A stretch of 64,000 bases of DNA from Tildeniella nuda ZEHNDER 1965/U140 (GTDB lineage: Bacteria > Cyanobacteriota > Cyanobacteriia > Leptolyngbyales > Leptolyngbyaceae), in the NCBI GenBank assembly GCA_019358895.1, contig JAHHIG010000001.1, positions 558,001 to 622,000 on the forward strand. The letters are read 5' to 3'. The position numbers and the translations under genes are program-made. This document shows positions 33,194 to 47,836 of the stretch, piece after piece (within the stretch, counting starts at the first letter, position 1; each line of letters starts with the position of its first letter). The notes beneath the pieces are model-generated. The model was given only the letters and a program-made list of their open reading frames with translations. It ran no database searches and was not told the origin of the DNA.

Positions 33194-34951
33194 TTATGAG
33201 GCTGCCAGTTCTGGGGTGCTGGTGAGGCTGGCGAGAATTTGGCGCATTTCGGCGATCGTCTGCCCCTGAGAGTCTCCCGCTTCTTGAAACTGAGCCATTG
33301 TGCCTGTAACGCCTTCCAAGCGTTGACGCAACCCGTCTACGTTGTCTTGAATGGGTTGGAGCATTTCCTGGTAAAGGTTAACGCGCCCCCAGGTCTCAGC
33401 GGCGGTAGAGCGGCGATCGAGCAAAGTTTGTTCTAACTGCTTGAGTTCGTTGCGCTTGTTTTCTTGTTCGGCTGCTTGCGTGTTAACCATGCCTTGCGCC
33501 TGATCGATCGCGCCTCGCATTTGCTCAATCTGGCTTTCCAGCTTTTGCAATTCTTCTACCTGCTGCTGCCGTTGCGCTTCGATTTGGCTGAGGATGGGTC
33601 CCAGGTCAATGTCGTTTTCTTGCGTGGTTGGGTCGGCGTTGCCCTGACGACGTAGCAACACGGCACGGTGCTGGCTGAGTAGCCCGTCGCGTTCTCGCAG
33701 GTTGCGCCGCTGACCGACCAGGGTTTCGTTGAGCATCTGGTAGCCGTCTTGCTCGTCTGCCAGTTCGTTTTCTAGATTGAGGCGATCGTACTCATTGGCA
33801 GCCTGAATTTTTGCCTGTACCGCGTCGATCTCTTGCTGCTTATAGCGCAGTTCCTCTTCCTGGCTTTCCACAAACTGAGAGAGCTTTTGTAGATCGCGCT
33901 CTAGATCGCTAACCACTTTTTGCAGCTCATCTACTGATAGCTTTTCGAGCGCCTCAACATCGACCTTTTGCCCAATCTTGACCTTGTCTGATGTGTCTGC
34001 CAAGCCGTAGAGGTGATGATGCAAGTCCTCTTGATTCTGAATCTGTACGCCCAGCATCCGGGCATACTCCTGGCGGACGTTGAGCGATGTTTGCTGTACT
34101 TTTAGCTCTGCTCGTCCTTGCTCCAACGACTCCTGTGCCTGGTTCCACTCTTCCCAACACTGTTGAATCTCTTGCGTTTGGCGATCGACATCGCCTTGAA
34201 GCTGCTGTGCGGTCGATCGTTGCTGCTCCAAATTCTGCCACTGCTCACTGAGCGTGTTTTGCTGCTGGGTCAGAATTTCAAACGAGGCATTTAGTTGCTC
34301 TCGTACAGCATCGGTTGGGGGCACCGAATCGGCTAAGCGATTCAGCAAATCATGGATCGTCCGCGCCTGATCGTCATCAAGAAAAGCCGTTTGCTGAAAC
34401 TCTGCTTGCCGCTCTTCCAGGCGACGCATTTCGCCGCGCAGATGATCCCAGGCACCTTCTAGTTCCTGACGATTGCGTTCAAACTCGTCCCGCTGTTGAG
34501 TGACCTCGTCGCGCAGCGTTTCAAACTCCTTACGCTGTTGCTCTAGCTGCTCGAAGTCGTCTTCCATCTGCTGGAGTTGTTCGCGGCGAGCCTCCATCTC
34601 CATTTCTCGGCGATTCAGTTCCTGGCTTTGATAGGTCAGCGATTGCTTCCACTGCTCAATTTCTTCTTCTTGCGTTTTAAATTTCTCTTGCAAGCGCGAA
34701 AAGTTTTGCAGAATGCTGACCAGTTGCCGACCCGCTTCCTGGACGCGCTGCACCTGCTTGTTTGCCGTCAAATCAACCAAAACAAGGGCACCACCGTTGT
34801 AGTTATTCGCCTCGTCACAGCCCACAACTTCTTCACCCGGCACAGCGCTCCAGCTTTGTTCGGTCCGCTGGCAGGCAAGCAGTTTTAGCTCTGCTTTTCC
34901 ACCACCTAGCAAGCCACCACTCTTCTTTTGTACTTCTGCTAGATACAGCAC
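33194..34951 (-). CDS. hmpF: HmpF, pilus-motility coiled-coil protein
   Basis: A 585-residue cytosolic protein of the HmpF family, which in filamentous cyanobacteria localises to cell poles and is needed for type IV pilus activity and gliding. The N-terminal 60 residues are the conserved globular part (MLYLAEVQKKSGGLLGGGKAELKLLACQ is spread over 1-28; LVLVDLTANKQVQRVQEAGRQL follows), and nearly all of residues 70-570 is coiled coil rich in Gln and Glu. The start is GTG 34951 with AGAGGAT upstream. It is divergent from hmpA, as in Nostoc punctiforme where hmpF precedes hmpA on the opposite strand. It may connect the Hmp signalling array to the pilus motor. Confidence 0.9.
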   Translation of the reverse strand: MLYLAEVQKKSGGLLGGGKAELKLLACQRTEQSWSAVPGEEVVGCDEANNYNGGALVLVDLTANKQVQRVQEAGRQLVSILQNFSRLQEKFKTQEEEIEQWKQSLTYQSQELNRREMEMEARREQLQQMEDDFEQLEQQRKEFETLRDEVTQQRDEFERNRQELEGAWDHLRGEMRRLEERQAEFQQTAFLDDDQARTIHDLLNRLADSVPPTDAVREQLNASFEILTQQQNTLSEQWQNLEQQRSTAQQLQGDVDRQTQEIQQCWEEWNQAQESLEQGRAELKVQQTSLNVRQEYARMLGVQIQNQEDLHHHLYGLADTSDKVKIGQKVDVEALEKLSVDELQKVVSDLERDLQKLSQFVESQEEELRYKQQEIDAVQAKIQAANEYDRLNLENELADEQDGYQMLNETLVGQRRNLRERDGLLSQHRAVLLRRQGNADPTTQENDIDLGPILSQIEAQRQQQVEELQKLESQIEQMRGAIDQAQGMVNTQAAEQENKRNELKQLEQTLLDRRSTAAETWGRVNLYQEMLQPIQDNVDGLRQRLEGVTGTMAQFQEAGDSQGQTIAEMRQILASLTSTPELAAS

Positions 34952-38429: not shown

Positions 38430-38584
38430 GAGAAAAATTGACGTGAAAAAACTGAGAACTAGCAGTAAAACTGAGGAACGAGTCACGCGGGTTGAGTGCG
38501 GTGTCGGTAGCAGCCGTGCCGTACGTCGCAAACTGTCCGCTATGCCTAAGCTACAGCACTCAATACGCAACTGGGAGGAGGCAA

Positions 38585-41458
38585 ATGGCATCAGGCACTG
38601 AATACGCACAGGACTATCAGCAAGCTCAAAAAGCCTATGTACAGGGCAACTATCAAGAGGCTGCTGAAGTCGTCGATCGCCTTGTCAAAGAATTTCCTGA
38701 AGACCCCAGCGCGTCTTTGCTGCGCGGTCACGTCTACTGCTATGGGTTACAGCAGTTTACGGTCGCCAGAGAACAGTACCAGTCAGTGCTGAGCCTCACA
38801 ACCGATCAGGAATTCATCAACTACGCCAACGATGGACTGGCTTATATCAACAGCCAATCTGATGTCGGCGATGGTCAAGACCACTTCGATGCGGCGATCG
38901 CGTCTGAAGCGTATGCGCCAGCCGAACCTGATTATGCATCCGCAAGCAATTGGCAAAACGGTGACGTTTTAGGCGTGGATAATGAGTTTGACAACGTTTT
39001 TGGTGCCGATGACCTTGATTTTGACCCCAACTTCGACCCGAATTTTAACCCAGAAGCGAATGAGCCTGGGCAGAATTTTGCGTTGCCACCAGAGCAAGAG
39101 CCGTTCGCTAGCCCGTTCGCCGCTAACACCTATCTGCAAGAGTCCGATCAGTTAGACGACCTTGATGCCCTGTCTGATCCGTTCTCAGTTGATGCCGTAG
39201 CGCCACCGTCTCCCACAGAGGACTCATTCACAGAGGAATCATTCTTCCAGTCACCACCAGCTGAATCATCGCCTAGCATGGGCGACCTACCCGATCAGTT
39301 TGATTACGGTGTGTCAAATTATGGTGCCAACGCGCCTCATGATCAGTTCGCCTCAGCTCTGGATGAGTTTGATGACGCGTTTGCACCGTTGGACTTGCCG
39401 GAAGCCTTGCCGATCGATCAGCCACACGACACCATAGAGAGCGACAGTCCTGTTGGCGATCGCCTGCTCGAACTACCCCATCCAACTCGTAGTTATCCGC
39501 CCCGCGTCAGTGAAGATGAAACTCTCTTCATGGGCAGTACCGGAGCGTACGAGAGTGATCAAACATTTGCTTCGGCTGGCGAATTTACTCAGGAGCCGAT
39601 AGACGCTGCTGATGGCGATCGTGCTCACAGCGCTGCGGGGAGTACAGGGCAAACCAGCGCCGACTTTCTGGATGAATTTGACGAATTTGACGATCTTGGT
39701 AATCTCGCCGACTTTGACCTTTCCGATAACTCCGCAGGTTTTACCAGCCCTGCTGTTGGTACAGGCTTTGATTCGCCTGGAGGCATGGCGTTGGCTGGGG
39801 GCGAAGCTGTAGCACGTGGAGCGACCACCCGGGATTTCGATTCGATGGACTTTAGTCAAGGTGGCAGTCACTCCACCATCTCAGATGATGAAGTGTTTAG
39901 CATCTCCAGCACGTCCGACCAGGTGCCGACCTTTACCCAAACTGATCAGCAAAACCTTGAACCGACTCCCAGCGTTGAGCAAGGAGCGCTAGCGTTTCTG
40001 GAGAATGCACCGATTGAGCGAAAACAGTTTTACACCGCCATTACGGCTGGGATTTTCTCTGCTGTCGCGGTGGCGATCGTCAACCTCATTTCTACCAGCA
40101 CCCTTCCTGGTACATCTGCCAGTGCCACACAGCAAGAAAAGGACATTTCCAGCGCGGTGATCTCGCGGCTTCAGAGCACTGGCTGGGCAATGGCTCTAGT
40201 CGGTGGTCTATCGGGTGGTATGGCAGCCTTTGCCGTCGGACAATTCACTGCCAAGAAAATCAGGCAGTCCACCGATGACCTGCAAGCGCAGTTCAATTCG
40301 GTGTCTCAAGGCAACTTAAATGCCCGTGCCACAGTTTACACAGAGGATGAGTTTGGTCATCTATCCACCGGGTTCAACCAGATGGCGCGAGTCATCCTGA
40401 CGACCACCAGCGAAGCGCAACGCAAAGCAGAAGAGCAAGAACAAGCGAAGGAAGACCTCCAACGACAGGTGATTCGACTGCTGGATGATGTGGAAGGTGC
40501 GGCGCGGGGTGACTTGACGGTGCAGGCAGAAGTCACGGCTGACGTATTGGGAGCCGTTGCCGACTCGTTCAACCTGACCATCCAGAACCTCCGTGAGATT
40601 GTGCAACAGGTGAAAGTGGCAGCGCGGCAGGTGAGCAAAGGCTCGACTGACAACGAAATGTTCGCCCGCAGTTTGTCCTCTGATGCCCTCCGTCAGGCAG
40701 AAGAGCTTGCTGTGACGCTGAATTCCGTGCAAGTCATGACCGACTCGATTCAACGGGTGGCAGAAAGCGCCCGCGAAGCGGAGGAAGTGGCACGATCGGC
40801 ATCCGCAACCGCCCTTAAAGGGGGTGAAGCAGTGGAACGCACGGTGGCAGGTATTCTCGAAATCCGCGAAACGGTGGCAGAAACTACGCGTAAGGTGAAG
40901 CGCCTAGCGGAATCATCGCAAGAGATTTCCAAGATCGTCGCCTTGATTTCGCAAATTGCCTCCCGTACCAACCTATTGGCACTCAACGCTAGTATTGAGG
41001 CAGCGCGGGCAGGCGAAGCGGGTCGTGGGTTTGCGATCGTCGCCGATGAAGTACGTCAGCTTGCTGACCGAGCCGCGAAAGCGTCGAAGGAAATCGAGCA
41101 AATCGTACTGCAAATTCAGGGTGAAACGGGTTCTGTAATGACGGCAATGGAGGAAGGAACGCAGCAGGTGATCGAGGGTACTCGACTGGCGGAACAGGCG
41201 AAGCGATCGCTCGAAGATATCATTCAGGTCTCCAACCGGATTGACGTGCTGGTGCGATCGATCACAGCGGATACCGTTGAGCAAACCGAAACCTCACGTG
41301 CGGTTGCGCAGGTCATGCAATCGGTTGAATTGACCGCGCAAGAAACCTCGCAGGAAGCGCAGCGGGTGTCCGGTTCGCTGCAAAATCTGGTCGGCGTTGC
41401 CCGCGATTTGCTCACCTCGGTGGAACGGTTCCGAGTGGAAACGATCGAGCGCAAGTAG
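38585..41458 (+). CDS. hmpD: HmpD, methyl-accepting chemotaxis protein with long acidic linker
   Basis: A 957-residue receptor. Residues about 1-90 contain a TPR-like helical hairpin pair ([21 protein letters not shown]). Residues about 100-470 are an acidic, low-complexity linker rich in Asp, Phe, Ser and Pro (FDDFDDL-type words, [12 protein letters not shown]). Two membrane helices at about 481-503 and 533-553 flank a short loop, so almost no periplasmic sensor exists. HAMP domains cover about 555-680, and the cytoplasmic signalling helix about 690-957, with the tip [21 protein letters not shown]. Input is probably cytosolic. The start ATG 38585 has a strong GGGAGGAG ribosome site. Confidence 0.92.
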
Positions 41459-41713: not shown

Positions 41714-44700
41714 ATGCAGCCTGAACAACAACAGCGAATCATGGGCTACTTCATTGAGGAGGCAAAAGACCACCTCAACACGATCGAGCAAGGCTTGCTC
41801 AATCTGCAAAGCACCATTGAAGACCAGGAAATGGTCAATGAGCTGTTTCGGGCAGCCCACTCCGTCAAAGGTGGAGCGGCAATGCTGGGGCTAAACAGCA
41901 TTCAGCAAGTCTCCCATCGCCTGGAAGACTACTTCAAGATTCTTAAAGATGCGCCTGTTAAAGTCGATCAAAAGCTTGAAGGTCTTTTTTTACAAGTTTT
42001 TGATGCGCTACAGGAGCTGGTGGGGCAGTTACAAGGACCGTTTGGCTTGACTGATGAAGCTGCAAATGCGACGGTTGCTGGGGTCGAGCATGTCTTTGGA
42101 GAGCTAGAAAACCACTTGAATGTCCTGGCAAGTAGTGCCACCCCTACGCCATCTGCCGTCGATCGCTCGATCGCCGCTGGTGCTCAGGTAGGCTCATCGC
42201 CAGCACAGCAGGACAGTGCCTTCGTACTGCTTTTCCAGAACGACATTCCGTTGCGGCTGCGCGAGATGCTGCAACTATTCAAGCAGCCAGAGTCGGACGC
42301 GGCTAATCGTCAGCAGTTGCAAGATCTGTGTCGCCATCTGATCAGCATCGGCGAACGATTTGATTTGTCAAGTTGGTGTGTTCTGGTCGAGATGGCGAGA
42401 ACGGCGATCGCCAACCCTGACAATGCTTATCGCACACTGGCTGCGGTCGTAATCAAAGACATCAAGCAGGCGCAAGAACTGGTTCTCTCTGGTCGCGCTT
42501 CTGAAATTGCGCCCTGTGTTCAACTACAGGCTCTACAGCCCCTCACGCCACAACTTGCGATCGACGACTTTGACGACCTGCTAGCAACCTCAGATAACAC
42601 CGACTGGCTGATGGAGCCACAAGCAGTCACGACTGACGATGACCTGTTTGCTGACCTGGACAACGTTTCGCCCGCGATTAATTTGAGCGACAGCCTCAGT
42701 ACAGCATCGGTCAGTGACGAACCAAGTGATCAGCATGGACCTGAAGTTGGGATGGCAGAGCTTAACAGTCTCGCTGACCTCTTTGAGGGCGAGGTGCCCG
42801 ACCTGGGTTCTACGTGGCAAGAGGAAGAAATTATCACCGATACGGCAGCGATGCTTGCCGTTAGTTCAGATGATGCCGCCGCTTTTGACAAAACTGCCGA
42901 CTTTGCCGATCTTCTCTTTGATGAGGCAGAGATCGGGCAGGAAGAAGCCTCAACCTCCTCTCAGGATGCGCTTACCGACCTCTTCAGCGATGATGCACTA
43001 GCACCAGAATCGTTCGTAGGTGAAGACGATCGCCTCTTCTCAGGCAGCATCAATGAACAGGATGACTTGAACGACCTCTTTGGCACATCCGACTCTGCTG
43101 ACTTGAGTGAGTCAACGGATGCTGGAGCCATGCTTGAGCCGTCCGTTGCTTTTGATGATGTCTTTGACGATTTGAACCTGGACACTGAAACGACTTCGGA
43201 GTCGGATGCCTCTCGTTTTGAGCAAGCGTTTGAATCCAGTTCGTCTCTTGATAATTTGGGTGAACTCTTCGCTGGCATGGAAGGGGAGCAAGACCTCACC
43301 TTCTCAGAACTCCAGAACAGCTCCGACGCACCCCTGGAACTTAACCTGGACGAATTGGATGATCCCATTGTCAATGAGCTAGACGATCCCTGGGACGAGC
43401 TGACCCAGCCTCAGAGCGCGAATCAAAATCCGCTTCCTCTGGATCAATCTGCGCCATCGCTGACTGATGACGCAATGCCTGATACTTCCATGATGGATGA
43501 TGCGATCGTGCCAACCGCAGTCAACACAACTGAACCAAGCACGTTCGGCGATGACAGTTTCATCACCGACCCCATCGAAGTGCTATCTGATCAGGACGAT
43601 AGTGACTTCAGCAGCCTTCTACACTCAACGACGGCTGAACCATCAGCGACATCGCTTCCAGAGCCGCTAGTAGAAGAACTCACGGATGATGGGCTTGACC
43701 AATCGTTCGCATCACTGCTAGAAGACGATGCAGCGCCTGAACTGCTGCCAATTGATGACGAACTGGCAGCGTTAGATTTGTCTTTATCATCGGATGAAGT
43801 CTCCGATCAACCTCCCACTACCTTGCCAGCCGATCTTCCTGATCCGTGGGCAGGTTTAGACGTATCCCAACCCCAATCCTCTGGTTCAGATGCCTCCTAT
43901 GCCGATGAGTTGAGCCTTGATCTCGCTAATCTCGACTTTGACAATGCCGAGACATCAGCAAACGTAGCTTCAGTGGATGCGCTAGACATTGACTTCGGTG
44001 GTTTGGATACAGACGAGGCTGTGGACACTACGCTCTTAGATGTATCAGAGGTGGATGCCTCAGTGCCAGATGTAGCAGCATCCTGGTTGACTGCAGATGA
44101 CTCTGATCAGACGATCGATCCAGCCGCTGCACTAGAAGAGCCGTTTGCTGAAGCGCCCAGCACGATCGCCCATGCTGACTTGCTGAACGAATCCTTGGAA
44201 GGTCTAACCGACTTTGAGCCGTTTGCTTTCGGTGCCGCTTCAGAGTCGCTCAATGCGTTTGATGACTTGATGGAAACCCAGCCTGCCAGTACGTCTGATG
44301 CTCCTGGCACACTCTTCGATGAGCCAAGTTTTGATGAATCGCTTGACGAGCTAAACTTCAGTGACCCAAACCAGATCGATGAGGATTTGGAATTACCAGA
44401 TGACTTATTCACGATTGGAGTCTCTCCAGAACCGCTATCCGATGAAGCAACGGGGGCAGCGCTCAGCGATGATGTATTGGGTCTCAGCGCTTTAGACGAT
44501 CTGGATGCGCTCAGCGCGATCGCGCCTTCGGACGAGAGCTTAAATTTACACGAGCAACCGTTTGCGTTGGGCGCACCTGCCACTATTGGTGAAGAAACTG
44601 ATGGCGAAGAAACTGAGACAACCGACGATCCGCTAGCGTTGGCTGACGACCTCTTTGCATCAGCCGATGAAATGACAGCGGTCTCAACGATCAGTGCAGA

Positions 44701-47700
44701 CACTAGCGCTGAAGAGAGCTTAGACTTCGATTTGCTTGGCTTAGACAATCTAGACGGTGCTGATACATCGCAAACGTCCACTGATGACAATCTGGATTTT
44801 GGTGAAGGGTTATTTGCCTTTCAAGAGAATAGCAACACAGCAGCTACCCCCTCAACTGAAGACAGTCTCAACTTCGACGATGATTTGCTCTTTCAATCAC
44901 CGGAGGATAGCAGTGGAGCGGCTATTCCTTTGAATGAGGTGAATGAGGACAGTCTCAACTTTGGTGATGATCTGAACTTTGGTGATGATTTGCTTGCTTT
45001 CAGCGATCGCGAGGAACGCAACGGCACGGCAGTAGATACGACTGATTCTAGTGACTTTTCATTAGAGTTTGAGAGTTCTGAAGCGTTTGAGAGTTCTGAC
45101 TTCGACGCTTTGGGCTTTGATTCACCGCCTGTCGAAACCATCACTACAGGCTCGGAGGCATTGGCTGATTTCGACTGGGAAACAAGCAGCGGCGAGAACG
45201 CAACCAACGATAGTTTGCTCGATCTCGATCGCTTGCTCGATGAATCATCCGCCTCAACATCCACGGATGACTCTGCGTCGTTCGATCAACTGCTGGACGG
45301 AGGAAGCCAGCCAGAAAATGCGAACGCTTCTGCTTTCGACAATCTGCTGAGTGACGACGATGCGTTTGCCGATTTGACCGATCTGAGCAGCTTGGATTTA
45401 GATCACACGATCGATAGTGATCACACGATCGATAGTGACAATTTGACTGGTCTAGAGTCGTTTCTTGATCAAGAGGCTTCAGAGGCAGACGAATGGGCTA
45501 GTTTAGACGACATGCTGGCTGAAGCACCTGATGCGGCGTCTGTACTAGAAGACGTTGATGCCCCTGAAACTGCTGCAGGGGGAATGCTGGCGTTTGGTGC
45601 CACAGCCTCATCACAACTAGGCGACTTTGCTGACCTCGAATCGCTTTTGCAGGGTGAAGCACTTGACCAAGACAACACTGCCACATCCCTCTTTGATGCA
45701 GCACCTCTATCCGATACAGCAGCATCACGCGCGTCTGAGTTTGATGACCTGGATGATTTGCTGAAGGATGCTGAAGAGAAAATGGGCGGTTCGCCTACAG
45801 TGAAACTGACCCGTGGTGGTGCAGCGGCTCAGAATCGTCGTCCAACCCGTCCCGGTCGAGTGTTTAGCGAGCAGACGATGCGGGTGCCCGTCAAGCATTT
45901 AGATAACCTCAGTAACCTGGTAGGGGAACTGGTGGTCAACCGCAACAGCCTGGAGGAAGACCAGGAACGGCTCCGTCAGTCGCTTGATAATTTGCTGTAT
46001 CAGGTACAGCAACTGAGCGATGTGGGTCAGCGAATGCAAGACTTGTATGAGCGATCGCTCCTGGAAAGTTCTCTTCTCGCCAGTCGCCAAAGCCACCGTA
46101 GCGCCTTCAGTGCGCCACCTTCAGTACGCGAAAGTGGAGTCTTCGCTCAAACCGCAAATGCCACTGGTATCGAATACGATCCTCTGGAGATGGATCGCTT
46201 TACGGGCTTCCATAGCCTTTCACAGGAAATGATCGAGCTGATTGTACGAGTTCGGGAGTCGTCATCTGACATTGAGTTCATCGTGGATGAAACCGATCAG
46301 GTGACGCGGATGTTCCGTCAGGTAACGACTCAGTTGCAAGAAGGCTTGACCCGATCGCGCATGGTGCCGTTTGCTCAAACTGCCGATCGACTGCCCCGTG
46401 CCGTGCGTGACATTGCGATGAAAGTCGGCAAACAGGCAGAACTAAACGTCGAAGGGCGCGAAACGCTGATCGACAAGATGATTTTGGAGCAGCTTTACGA
46501 TCCAATGACGCATCTGGTGAACAACGCCATCACTCACGGCATTGAGTCTCCTGAAGTGCGCCGTGCCGCAGGCAAATCGCCCTCTGGACGCATCACCATT
46601 CGCGCCTTCCACCAGGGAAACCAGACGATCATCTCGGTTTCCGATGACGGTGCGGGGATCGACATCGATCGCGTCAAGGCAAAGGCGATCGAAAAAGGAC
46701 TCATCACCGCGACTGAAGCAAGAAACATGACGCGGTTAGATCTCTACGATTTGCTCTTCCACGCTGGTTTCAGCACGAAAGATCAGGCAGATGACTTCTC
46801 CGGTCGGGGTGTGGGGATGGATGTCGTTCGCACCAGTCTGAGCGAGATTCGTGGCGCAATTACCACCGACTCTACCTATGGCAAGGGCACGACGTTCACG
46901 ATTCGCCTCCCGCTGACGCTGAGTATCTCAAAGGCACTGTGCTGCATCAGCGATCGCGCCCGTATTGCCTTCCCGATGGACGGGGTGGAAGATATGCTCG
47001 ATGTGCCTAAAGAACGCATTCAAACCAACGCCGAAGGGCAAGCCTGTATTCCCTGGCGCGATTCGCTCTTACCCCTGCGCCCCCTCAGCGAACTGCTGTC
47101 GTACAGCCGTCACCTCAGCCGAGGCAATGTGTATGGCGGCAACCAGGAAGACGATATTGTGTCGATCGTCGTTCTACGCAGTGCCGGAAACTTCCTCGCG
47201 CTCCAGGTCGATCAGGTGCTGGGCGAACAGGAAATTGTGATCAAGCAGCTAGAAGGACCCATTCCTAAACCCGTTGGTGTGGCTGGGGCAACGGTGTTGG
47301 GGGATGGTCGCATTATGCCGATCGCTGACGTGTTGGAACTGATTGACCTCTCACTGGGTCGCATTCGCAAAGATGTAGGTGGGTCGCTGTGGGAACAAGA
47401 CGGCGTGAGCATGGTTCAGGAAGCACCGATCGCCAAAACCGAGCCAACCGTGCTGATTGTAGACGACTCTATCACGGTACGCGAACTGCTCTCCATGACC
47501 TTCAACAAGGTTGGCTATCGGGTTGAACAGGCACGCGATGGGCAAGAGGCTTGGGAAAAACTCCGCGCTGGGCTACCCTGTGACATCGTGTTCTGCGACA
47601 TCGAAATGCCCCGGATGGATGGGTTAGAATTGCTCTCGCGTATCCAAAAAGACCCAAACCTCAGCCATTTACCGATCGCCATGCTCACCTCTCGTGGTGC

Positions 47701-47836
47701 CGATCGTCACCGTCAGATGGCAGTCTCCCTTGGTGCCAGCGGTTATTTCACGAAACCCTACCTGGAAGAAGCGCTGCTAGATGCCGCTCAACGGATGCTG
47801 AAAGGCGAAGTGCTGATTACCAGTAGCAATGCATGA
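41714..47836 (+). CDS. hmpE: HmpE, CheA-type histidine kinase with receiver and giant acidic linker
   Basis: A 2040-residue hybrid kinase driving the Hmp pathway. The N-terminal Hpt domain has the phospho-His in FRAAHSVKGGAAMLGL (about residue 50). Residues about 160-265 form a second folded segment. Residues about 270-1365 are an acidic, low-complexity linker with very few Lys or Arg, built of DDLF, LDFDD and DDLLAF words. The dimerisation domain begins TMRVPVKHLDNLSNLVGELV (about 1385), the ATPase has HLVNNAITHGIES, DDGAGID and GRGVGMDVV (about 1590-1720), the CheW-like domain covers about 1740-1890, and the receiver domain about 1912-2035 with Asp near 1962 (VFCDIEMPRMDG). The start is ATG 41714. 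Confidence 0.93.
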   Translation: MQPEQQQRIMGYFIEEAKDHLNTIEQGLLNLQSTIEDQEMVNELFRAAHSVKGGAAMLGLNSIQQVSHRLEDYFKILKDAPVKVDQKLEGLFLQVFDALQELVGQLQGPFGLTDEAANATVAGVEHVFGELENHLNVLASSATPTPSAVDRSIAAGAQVGSSPAQQDSAFVLLFQNDIPLRLREMLQLFKQPESDAANRQQLQDLCRHLISIGERFDLSSWCVLVEMARTAIANPDNAYRTLAAVVIKDIKQAQELVLSGRASEIAPCVQLQALQPLTPQLAIDDFDDLLATSDNTDWLMEPQAVTTDDDLFADLDNVSPAINLSDSLSTASVSDEPSDQHGPEVGMAELNSLADLFEGEVPDLGSTWQEEEIITDTAAMLAVSSDDAAAFDKTADFADLLFDEAEIGQEEASTSSQDALTDLFSDDALAPESFVGEDDRLFSGSINEQDDLNDLFGTSDSADLSESTDAGAMLEPSVAFDDVFDDLNLDTETTSESDASRFEQAFESSSSLDNLGELFAGMEGEQDLTFSELQNSSDAPLELNLDELDDPIVNELDDPWDELTQPQSANQNPLPLDQSAPSLTDDAMPDTSMMDDAIVPTAVNTTEPSTFGDDSFITDPIEVLSDQDDSDFSSLLHSTTAEPSATSLPEPLVEELTDDGLDQSFASLLEDDAAPELLPIDDELAALDLSLSSDEVSDQPPTTLPADLPDPWAGLDVSQPQSSGSDASYADELSLDLANLDFDNAETSANVASVDALDIDFGGLDTDEAVDTTLLDVSEVDASVPDVAASWLTADDSDQTIDPAAALEEPFAEAPSTIAHADLLNESLEGLTDFEPFAFGAASESLNAFDDLMETQPASTSDAPGTLFDEPSFDESLDELNFSDPNQIDEDLELPDDLFTIGVSPEPLSDEATGAALSDDVLGLSALDDLDALSAIAPSDESLNLHEQPFALGAPATIGEETDGEETETTDDPLALADDLFASADEMTAVSTISADTSAEESLDFDLLGLDNLDGADTSQTSTDDNLDFGEGLFAFQENSNTAATPSTEDSLNFDDDLLFQSPEDSSGAAIPLNEVNEDSLNFGDDLNFGDDLLAFSDREERNGTAVDTTDSSDFSLEFESSEAFESSDFDALGFDSPPVETITTGSEALADFDWETSSGENATNDSLLDLDRLLDESSASTSTDDSASFDQLLDGGSQPENANASAFDNLLSDDDAFADLTDLSSLDLDHTIDSDHTIDSDNLTGLESFLDQEASEADEWASLDDMLAEAPDAASVLEDVDAPETAAGGMLAFGATASSQLGDFADLESLLQGEALDQDNTATSLFDAAPLSDTAASRASEFDDLDDLLKDAEEKMGGSPTVKLTRGGAAAQNRRPTRPGRVFSEQTMRVPVKHLDNLSNLVGELVVNRNSLEEDQERLRQSLDNLLYQVQQLSDVGQRMQDLYERSLLESSLLASRQSHRSAFSAPPSVRESGVFAQTANATGIEYDPLEMDRFTGFHSLSQEMIELIVRVRESSSDIEFIVDETDQVTRMFRQVTTQLQEGLTRSRMVPFAQTADRLPRAVRDIAMKVGKQAELNVEGRETLIDKMILEQLYDPMTHLVNNAITHGIESPEVRRAAGKSPSGRITIRAFHQGNQTIISVSDDGAGIDIDRVKAKAIEKGLITATEARNMTRLDLYDLLFHAGFSTKDQADDFSGRGVGMDVVRTSLSEIRGAITTDSTYGKGTTFTIRLPLTLSISKALCCISDRARIAFPMDGVEDMLDVPKERIQTNAEGQACIPWRDSLLPLRPLSELLSYSRHLSRGNVYGGNQEDDIVSIVVLRSAGNFLALQVDQVLGEQEIVIKQLEGPIPKPVGVAGATVLGDGRIMPIADVLELIDLSLGRIRKDVGGSLWEQDGVSMVQEAPIAKTEPTVLIVDDSITVRELLSMTFNKVGYRVEQARDGQEAWEKLRAGLPCDIVFCDIEMPRMDGLELLSRIQKDPNLSHLPIAMLTSRGADRHRQMAVSLGASGYFTKPYLEEALLDAAQRMLKGEVLITSSNA

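Follow-up and report, generated by a model that had tools for sequence, protein, structure and literature searches.

A long acidic linker with conserved short motifs, putatively a docking arm, in the cyanobacterial kinase HmpE

The hmp locus and the domains of HmpE

The window analysed here, a 64,000-nucleotide stretch of the Tildeniella nuda ZEHNDER 1965/U140 genome (contig JAHHIG010000001.1, positions 558,001 to 622,000), carries the hmp locus, with hmpF on the minus strand followed by hmpA, hmpB, hmpC, hmpD and hmpE on the plus strand. Our subject is HmpE, a CheA of the type IV pilus (Tfp) class, PilL/HmpE type, which serves cyanobacteria as the central kinase for steering their pilus-driven movement, and in particular the long acidic linker inside it. 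The hmpF gene (33194-34951, minus strand) was named by NCBIfam NF038350 (E 9.1e-231). The plus-strand genes encode, in order, a PATAN/DUF4388-REC protein (HmpA), a REC protein (HmpB), a CheW (HmpC), a TPR-HAMP-MCP receptor (HmpD) and the CheA (HmpE). The full hmpF-hmpA-hmpB-hmpC-hmpD-hmpE cluster is present, and the same gene order is reported in Nostoc (Npun_R5959-F5964; PMC10581220).

The hmpE open reading frame (41714-47836) is open throughout and codes for 2,040 residues. Pfam placed on it Hpt at 9-101 (E 1e-17), H-kinase_dim at 1386-1443, HATPase at 1598-1735, CheW at 1742-1878 and REC (Response_reg) at 1913-2025. H-kinase_dim, HATPase_c and CheW, the core of a Tfp-class CheA, all scored above the Pfam cut-offs; the N-terminal Hpt, with its phosphorylatable His49 present in 84 of 84 aligned sequences, and the C-terminal receiver are likewise as this class requires. 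The single further Pfam row up to E 0.1 was a sub-threshold DUF948 overlying the dimerisation domain.

The second domain, D2, is probably a pseudo-Hpt, that is, a helical bundle that matches Hpt structures and has no conserved His: over residues 159-261 its model matched AHP1 (Z 10.6) and the YojN Hpt (Z 10.0), unrelated helical bundles also reaching 8.5-9.6, and His was found in at most 14 of 84 sequences in any D2 column. A search of solved structures gave D2 just one weak, unrelated match (E 0.49). Beyond Hpt, the structure matches to the N-terminal model were mixed helical bundles, and a family missing from that list is no evidence of its absence. ChpA of Pseudomonas aeruginosa is also a pilus-type kinase with an N-terminal Hpt region, no P2, a P3-P4-P5 core and a C-terminal receiver, and it too has Hpt-like domains without His, of which D2 would be an example (PMC10782961). 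Eight Hpt-type domains are reported for ChpA, whereas in HmpE a single Hpt and a single pseudo-Hpt are followed by a long, acidic, disordered arm that holds conserved motifs. The features of hmpE are listed below in window coordinates.

41714..47836, plus strand: hmpE, Tfp-class CheA, 2,040 residues (open reading frame, Pfam; hmpF neighbour by NCBIfam NF038350)
41720..42136, plus strand: Hpt (P1), residues 3-141 (Pfam, AlphaFold, structure matches, alignment of 84)
42200..42487, plus strand: D2, residues 163-258 (AlphaFold, structure matches, alignment of 84)
42509..45865, plus strand: acidic linker, residues 266-1384 (composition, orthologue set, AlphaFold)
42734..42832, plus strand: motif A, residues 341-373 (HGPEVGMAELNSLADLFEGEVPDLGSTWQEEEI), with a predicted helix at 347-358 (hidden Markov model, island scan, AlphaFold, dN/dS)
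42971..42985, plus strand: LxDLF copy LTDLF, residues 420-424
43067..43081, plus strand: LxDLF copy LNDLF, residues 452-456
43256..43270, plus strand: LxDLF-type copy LGELF, residues 515-519
44953..44989, plus strand: in-frame 18-base tandem duplication, NFGDDL (94% match; this genome only)
45401..45438, plus strand: in-frame 18-base tandem duplication, DHTIDS (period 18, 100% match; this genome only)
45611..45658, plus strand: motif C copy 1, FxDLExLL type, DFADLESLL, about residues 1300-1315 (island scan, hidden Markov model)
45731..45778, plus strand: motif C copy 2 adjoining P3, EFDDLDDLLKDAEE, about residues 1340-1355, with a predicted helix at 1344-1357 (hidden Markov model, AlphaFold)
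45866..47833, plus strand: kinase core P3-P4-P5 and C-terminal REC, residues 1385-2040 (Pfam, AlphaFold)

The acidic linker and its conserved motifs

A sequence-only reading of this DNA had proposed a long acidic linker without recognisable fold between the Hpt/second domain and the dimerisation domain. The linker (residues 266-1384) is 1,119 residues long and carries a net charge of -270; D+E make up 25.4% of it and K+R 1.3% (D 16.6%, E 8.8%, S 11.9%, L 12.9%, F 5.1%, A 11.8%, K 0.4%, R 1.0%). Only 15 of its 1,119 residues are basic, eight of them within the last 35 or so before P3. Pfam gave no match to the linker alone up to E 5, and FoldIndex was negative in most of its 51-residue windows. 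AlphaFold, run with orthologue alignments on residues 266-380 and 1160-1384, gave a predicted local distance difference test score (pLDDT) below 50 at 296-312 and 314-341 and of about 31-53 for most of 1160-1340; isolated helices stood out in the motif A blocks (pLDDT 68-73) and in motif C (68-69), the rest being mostly below 50. No folded domain was found in the modelled parts. The absence of a recognisable fold stands as far as Pfam and predicted order go, but that description overlooked a conserved stretch of 33 residues (341-373) and, close to the kinase, a set of helix motifs. The linker combines low predicted order with conserved islands, as a disordered region with short linear motifs does.

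Of 386 genomes searched, 122 had a single orthologous core each and the others none at E 1e-165; among those listed, the genomes without a core belonged largely to the small-genome family f2 (244 without a match are outside that listing). We collected 152 linkers from the window, 80 contigs and further genome stretches, leaving out the L171 stretch, which has no core start. A locus was called fused when Hpt and/or D2 matched in the kinase reading frame (112 of 152, including L142 and L153 with D2 only); 26 of the remainder are split and 14 are cut by a contig end, and three locus pairs have identical linkers. In the 112 fused loci, the linker measures 122-1774 residues (median 860) and in 104 at least 500; all are acidic (D+E 18-33%, median 26%; K+R 0.3-7.9%; median F 4.7%). 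The prospect that the linker would be absent or short in all close relatives was therefore not realised, and judging from these orthologues it is common across the phylum and no lineage artefact. By contrast, in a paralogous CheA of the same genome (G000:C10) the Hpt-D2 match and the kinase match lie only about 190 bases apart.

In four close pairs the linker changes 7-17 times faster than the kinase core, and the ratio of nonsynonymous to synonymous substitution rates (dN/dS) was 0.16-0.24 for the linker and 0.012-0.027 for the core, in windows where dS was often saturated. There are no internal stops in any of the 152 linkers. On these comparisons the linker is under purifying selection despite its fast change. 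Motif A gave a dN/dS of 0.012-0.038 in three unsaturated pairs, similar to the core; the chain thus appears free to change and the motif sites not.

Motif A is the 33-residue island at 341-373 (GPEVGMAELNSLADLFEGE...TWQEEE). When segments of the window linker were compared with 82 orthologues with a core less than 80% identical, and with local shuffles, one strong island emerged at 338-377 (z up to 7.9), together with weak ones at the LxDLF sites, DLDRLLDE, DFADLESLL and EFDDLDDLLKDAEE. Hidden Markov models (HMMs) of A, C and of the receptor motif D described below were trained on sequences within the scored set, with shuffles as control. The motif A HMM matched 105 of the 152 linkers, once each, including 99 of the 112 fused ones, and its weakest match scored 31.8 bits compared with 8.7 for the best of 760 shuffled linkers. 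A scan of all reading frames of the loci gave second, weaker matches within ten HmpE frames and also located motif A in separate N-terminal frames of L054, L066, L078 and L169. In these four loci Hpt and motif A share one frame and the kinase lies in another, which may be a real split or an assembly error. Scanning 15 whole genomes revealed one strong place for motif A, in HmpE, in 12 (next best E 0.08), and none in G013, G015 and G016; solved structures held no match up to E 1. Motif A starts a median of 105 residues after D2 (5-95%: 76-162; extremes 39-194), an offset unrelated to linker length (rho -0.03, n 99).

The LxDLF copies lie mid-linker, between motif A and motif C. In 2,000 local shuffles of the window linker, LxDLF (4 copies) was expected 0.27 times (p 0.0005) and DDLF (3 copies) 0.21 times (p 0.0015). 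Among the recurring words noted earlier, DDLF exceeds the shuffle expectation and NFGDDL and DHTIDS do each occur twice in tandem, whereas LDFDD has no copy in the linker. The 18-base duplication encoding DHTIDS was found where it had been described, and both DHTIDS and NFGDDL are absent from the other 151 linkers and from the same-genus G001 protein. Outside motif A, the number of LxDLF copies per linker varies from 0 to 10 and rises weakly with length (rho 0.30).

Motif C, a series of FxDLExLL helices, occupies the last quarter of the linker with a median spacing of 35 residues, and its last copy ends 20-29 residues before P3 in 89 of the 112 fused loci. The motif C HMM gave 362 matches of at least 5 bits (133 of which may be its own seeds) compared with 1.6 per shuffled set. 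Motif A and the last FxDLExLL copy thus show the conserved spacing or motif number that had been looked for as support; the LxDLF repeats do not.

The receptor HmpD and kinase halves without Hpt

Acidic linkers also occur in HmpD (sampled receptors: D+E 16-29%, F 5-10%). In the window this linker carries one strong island, motif D, and a conserved block beside the membrane.

38492..41458, plus strand: hmpD receptor, with N-terminal TPR, acidic Phe-rich linker, HAMP and MCP signalling domain
39644..39739, plus strand: motif D in the HmpD linker, residues 385-416
39860..40027, plus strand: conserved membrane-side block of HmpD, residues 457-512

HmpD starts with the TPR on the cytoplasm side and has two hydrophobic stretches close together (about 513-530 and 562-582). 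They leave almost no periplasmic part, which makes a periplasmic ligand an improbable input for HmpD. The TTG start given for hmpD (38492-38590) is probably too early, because conservation begins at residue 33, just after an ATG at residue 32. HmpD resembles FimV/HubP, which combine an extensive acidic cytoplasmic region with TPR (PMC12918733), in its N-terminal TPR, its acidic linker and its work at the poles; the likeness is one of general features, HmpD having no LysM and another domain order.

Motif D was found in 89 of 104 receptors. In the 95 loci where both proteins are readable and the kinase is fused, A and D were jointly present or absent in 91 (82 both, 9 neither, 3 A only, 1 D only; Fisher p 1.8e-9). 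By family, agreement held in 17 of 19 (12 both, 5 neither, 2 A only; Fisher p 0.0018). Both tests ignore tree structure, and the families without the motifs are also more distant, so that common descent accounts for part of the association. The nine loci with neither motif mostly retain the folded domains of HmpB, C, D and E, but the membrane-side block was undetected in all nine, compared with 3 of 41 comparable loci with both. One relative has a second place for motif D, in a 785-residue frame besides its HmpD (G004:C287:986-1072).

Several ideas on the motifs and linkers were rejected. Direct kinship of the motifs failed, as the motif A HMM had no match in receptors and the motif D HMM reached at best 7.4 bits in linkers. 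The presence of HmpF does not explain retention, since all 37 genomes tested have it whether or not they carry the motifs; nor does that of D2 or TPR, each found in most genomes without A. Attraction by charge was discarded since no Hmp domain is strongly basic (the highest charges, +5 each, belong to the tail of 35 residues before P3 and to HmpA 195-290), and coupled HmpD and HmpE linker lengths since they are uncorrelated (rho -0.11, n 94).

We then considered kinase frames without Hpt. Twelve of the 26 split loci were excluded: L038, L043, L054, L064, L066, L070, L078, L084, L121, L169 and L172 (11 in all) for an Hpt upstream in another frame or for an uncertain or cut context, and L134 for an Hpt in cis. 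L142 and L153 were added, and L148, the sixteenth, was dropped as its arm is cut by Ns. In the 15 testable loci, no Hpt was matched by Pfam, nor was any found in the 7-8 kb upstream examined per locus; nine kinase frames start with the arm and six with D2 and then the arm. All 15 keep an acidic arm, of 216-570 residues, on the kinase half, and 14 have motif C in it, in 12 ending 17-27 residues before P3. By this comparison, the arm belongs to the kinase half and not to Hpt. In the six that start with D2 (L141, L143, L144, L155, L142 and L153) Hpt alone was lost and the pseudo-Hpt D2 kept. Six of the halves without Hpt or D2 (L126-L130 and L145) carry an acidic FxxDxxxLF/LL-type stretch within about 50 residues of their start, for example NWFDDEMESLFNDL, as if a putative docking site had been kept at the new N-terminus.

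Most of the no-Hpt genomes searched have a stand-alone Hpt-D2 gene elsewhere. In a tree of 28 stand-alone and 25 fused N-terminal regions, 27 of the 28 stand-alone sequences grouped in a single clade (support 100/98) together with one fused sequence on a long branch; the tree contains a number of very long branches, and the clade takes in paralogues from genomes with an intact HmpE. This suggests that the stand-alone proteins form an old clade of paralogues and did not break off from HmpE, apart from that of G024, which looks like the one true break; the lost Hpt thus appears to be replaced in trans by an old paralogue. The window genome has such a paralogue at L208 (G000:C12:35000-47000; match G000:C12:40592-41329, 52% identical to the HmpE N-terminus), with a conserved C-terminal tail, QITIPAEPRAAARALLEAFNRSQLIELAEFLMKAIQ in this genome. 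In P. aeruginosa, FimL is a separate protein whose N-terminus is homologous to that of ChpA, and both recruit PilG (PMC10519157); the L208-type paralogue holds an analogous place and is a possible FimL-like partner.

The system is also known in split form from Synechocystis PCC 6803, where PilL-N (Slr0073, Hik36) and PilL-C (Slr0322, Hik43) interact and act together (PMC7656254). Like them, several genomes here combine a stand-alone Hpt-D2 gene with a kinase half that lacks Hpt and has motif C and an acidic arm at its N-terminus; unlike in a simple PilL split, the stand-alone clade also occurs beside intact HmpE, in a tree that holds no PCC 6803 sequences.

Proposed role of the arm

We favour, with modest confidence, the reading that the linker does more than space the domains: it would be a multivalent docking arm that belongs to the kinase half of HmpE. 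Motif A, as one near-invariant anchor, the variable LxDLF sites and the motif C helices would be short binding motifs that become helical when they meet partner proteins. At the cell pole, the arm would thereby bring pilus-steering parts to within some 35 nm of the kinase dimer, a reach that assumes a polymer scaling law. The HmpA/PilG response regulator, the trans stand-alone Hpt-D2 protein, HmpF and a protein able to read the acidic HmpD motif as well are the candidate partners. Since conserved, repeated short motifs occur in an otherwise unalignable chain, partner binding seems the best supported of the uses suggested by the sequence-only reading. In a Synechocystis two-hybrid study (PMC7656254), a fragment of Hik43 that lacked CA, CheW and REC kept its binding to Hik36 and Rre6 (PilG), and both interactions were lost in a form that lacked the DIM domain. 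The data locate a binding site for both proteins in the kinase half but not in the three domains first named, which fits a docking arm.

Several observations weigh against this reading. Among the 112 fused loci, motif A is missing in 13, motif C in 7 and LxDLF outside motif A in 28, so no single motif is essential for a working HmpE. The arms without Hpt are shorter and less acidic (D+E 15-28%, K+R 4-10%), and only 4 of 15 carry motif A. The motif helices have only moderate pLDDT, and in the two-hybrid constructs the linker is not separable from the dimerisation domain. Motifs A and D are dissimilar by profile comparison (probability 0.3%); as they are not alike, the same binding site is not required. 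More tentatively, and doubtful as a whole, A, D and the membrane-side block may co-evolve and be read by one partner that holds the Hmp array, the arm being a scaffold that swaps the cis Hpt for the trans Hpt-D2 phosphodonor.

An entropic tether, in which the arm sets the distance and encounter rate between Hpt and core and the motifs are secondary, is unlikely. In 110 of 152 loci the arm does separate Hpt from core within a single frame, and a polymer estimate (R = 0.55 N^0.59 nm, assumed) gives about 35 nm end to end and a local concentration of about 13 uM for 1,119 residues, compared with 0.95 mM for 100 residues, so that length would matter for the rate. However, length ranges from 122 to 1774 residues, a tether has no need for a 33-residue motif whose rate of change is as low as that of the core, and the arm persists in all 15 testable loci that have no Hpt to hold. 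Holding Hpt far from the kinase, as proposed earlier, is thus disfavoured as the main job of the arm.

We give an equally low standing to condensate-like gathering of the Hmp array at the poles, driven by the acidic Phe/Leu-rich arms of HmpE and HmpD with the motifs as stickers. Long acidic Phe-rich linkers are found in both proteins across the set, and repeated hydrophobic-acidic motifs are the sort of stickers that such models require; on the other hand, the absence of correlation between the two linker lengths speaks against it, and the strictly single-copy motif A argues for one specific partner. Less likely again is regulation in cis, with the motif A and C helices folding back on D2, Hpt, P3 or P4 and gating phosphotransfer. 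The near-constant distance of the last motif C copy from P3 and the position of motif A near D2, both predicted helices, would suit it, but the helices score only about 70 pLDDT in both models, where stable docking would tend to score high, and motif A is missing in genomes that keep Hpt and D2 (for example G317, G102 and G016). Drift, by which repeat slippage would have inflated a dispensable linker, is very improbable: the two private in-frame 18-base duplications and the unconstrained length are in its favour, but the linker has no stops, a dN/dS of 0.16-0.24 (dS saturated), acidity in 112 of 112 and conserved islands.

A survey of 13,673 CheA proteins reports that the dimerisation domains of cyanobacterial Tfp CheA are long and that Hpt-like domains lacking His occur, and its available part holds no description of an HmpE-type linker (PMC10782961). 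In the literature searched (titles and abstracts; few subscription journals), no description of a conserved motif in the PilL/HmpE linker was found. A near-invariant 33-residue motif within an arm of 1,100 residues offers a defined bait and a defined deletion. That the arm was kept, rather than the covalent link to Hpt, would explain how the kinase lost its Hpt more than once.

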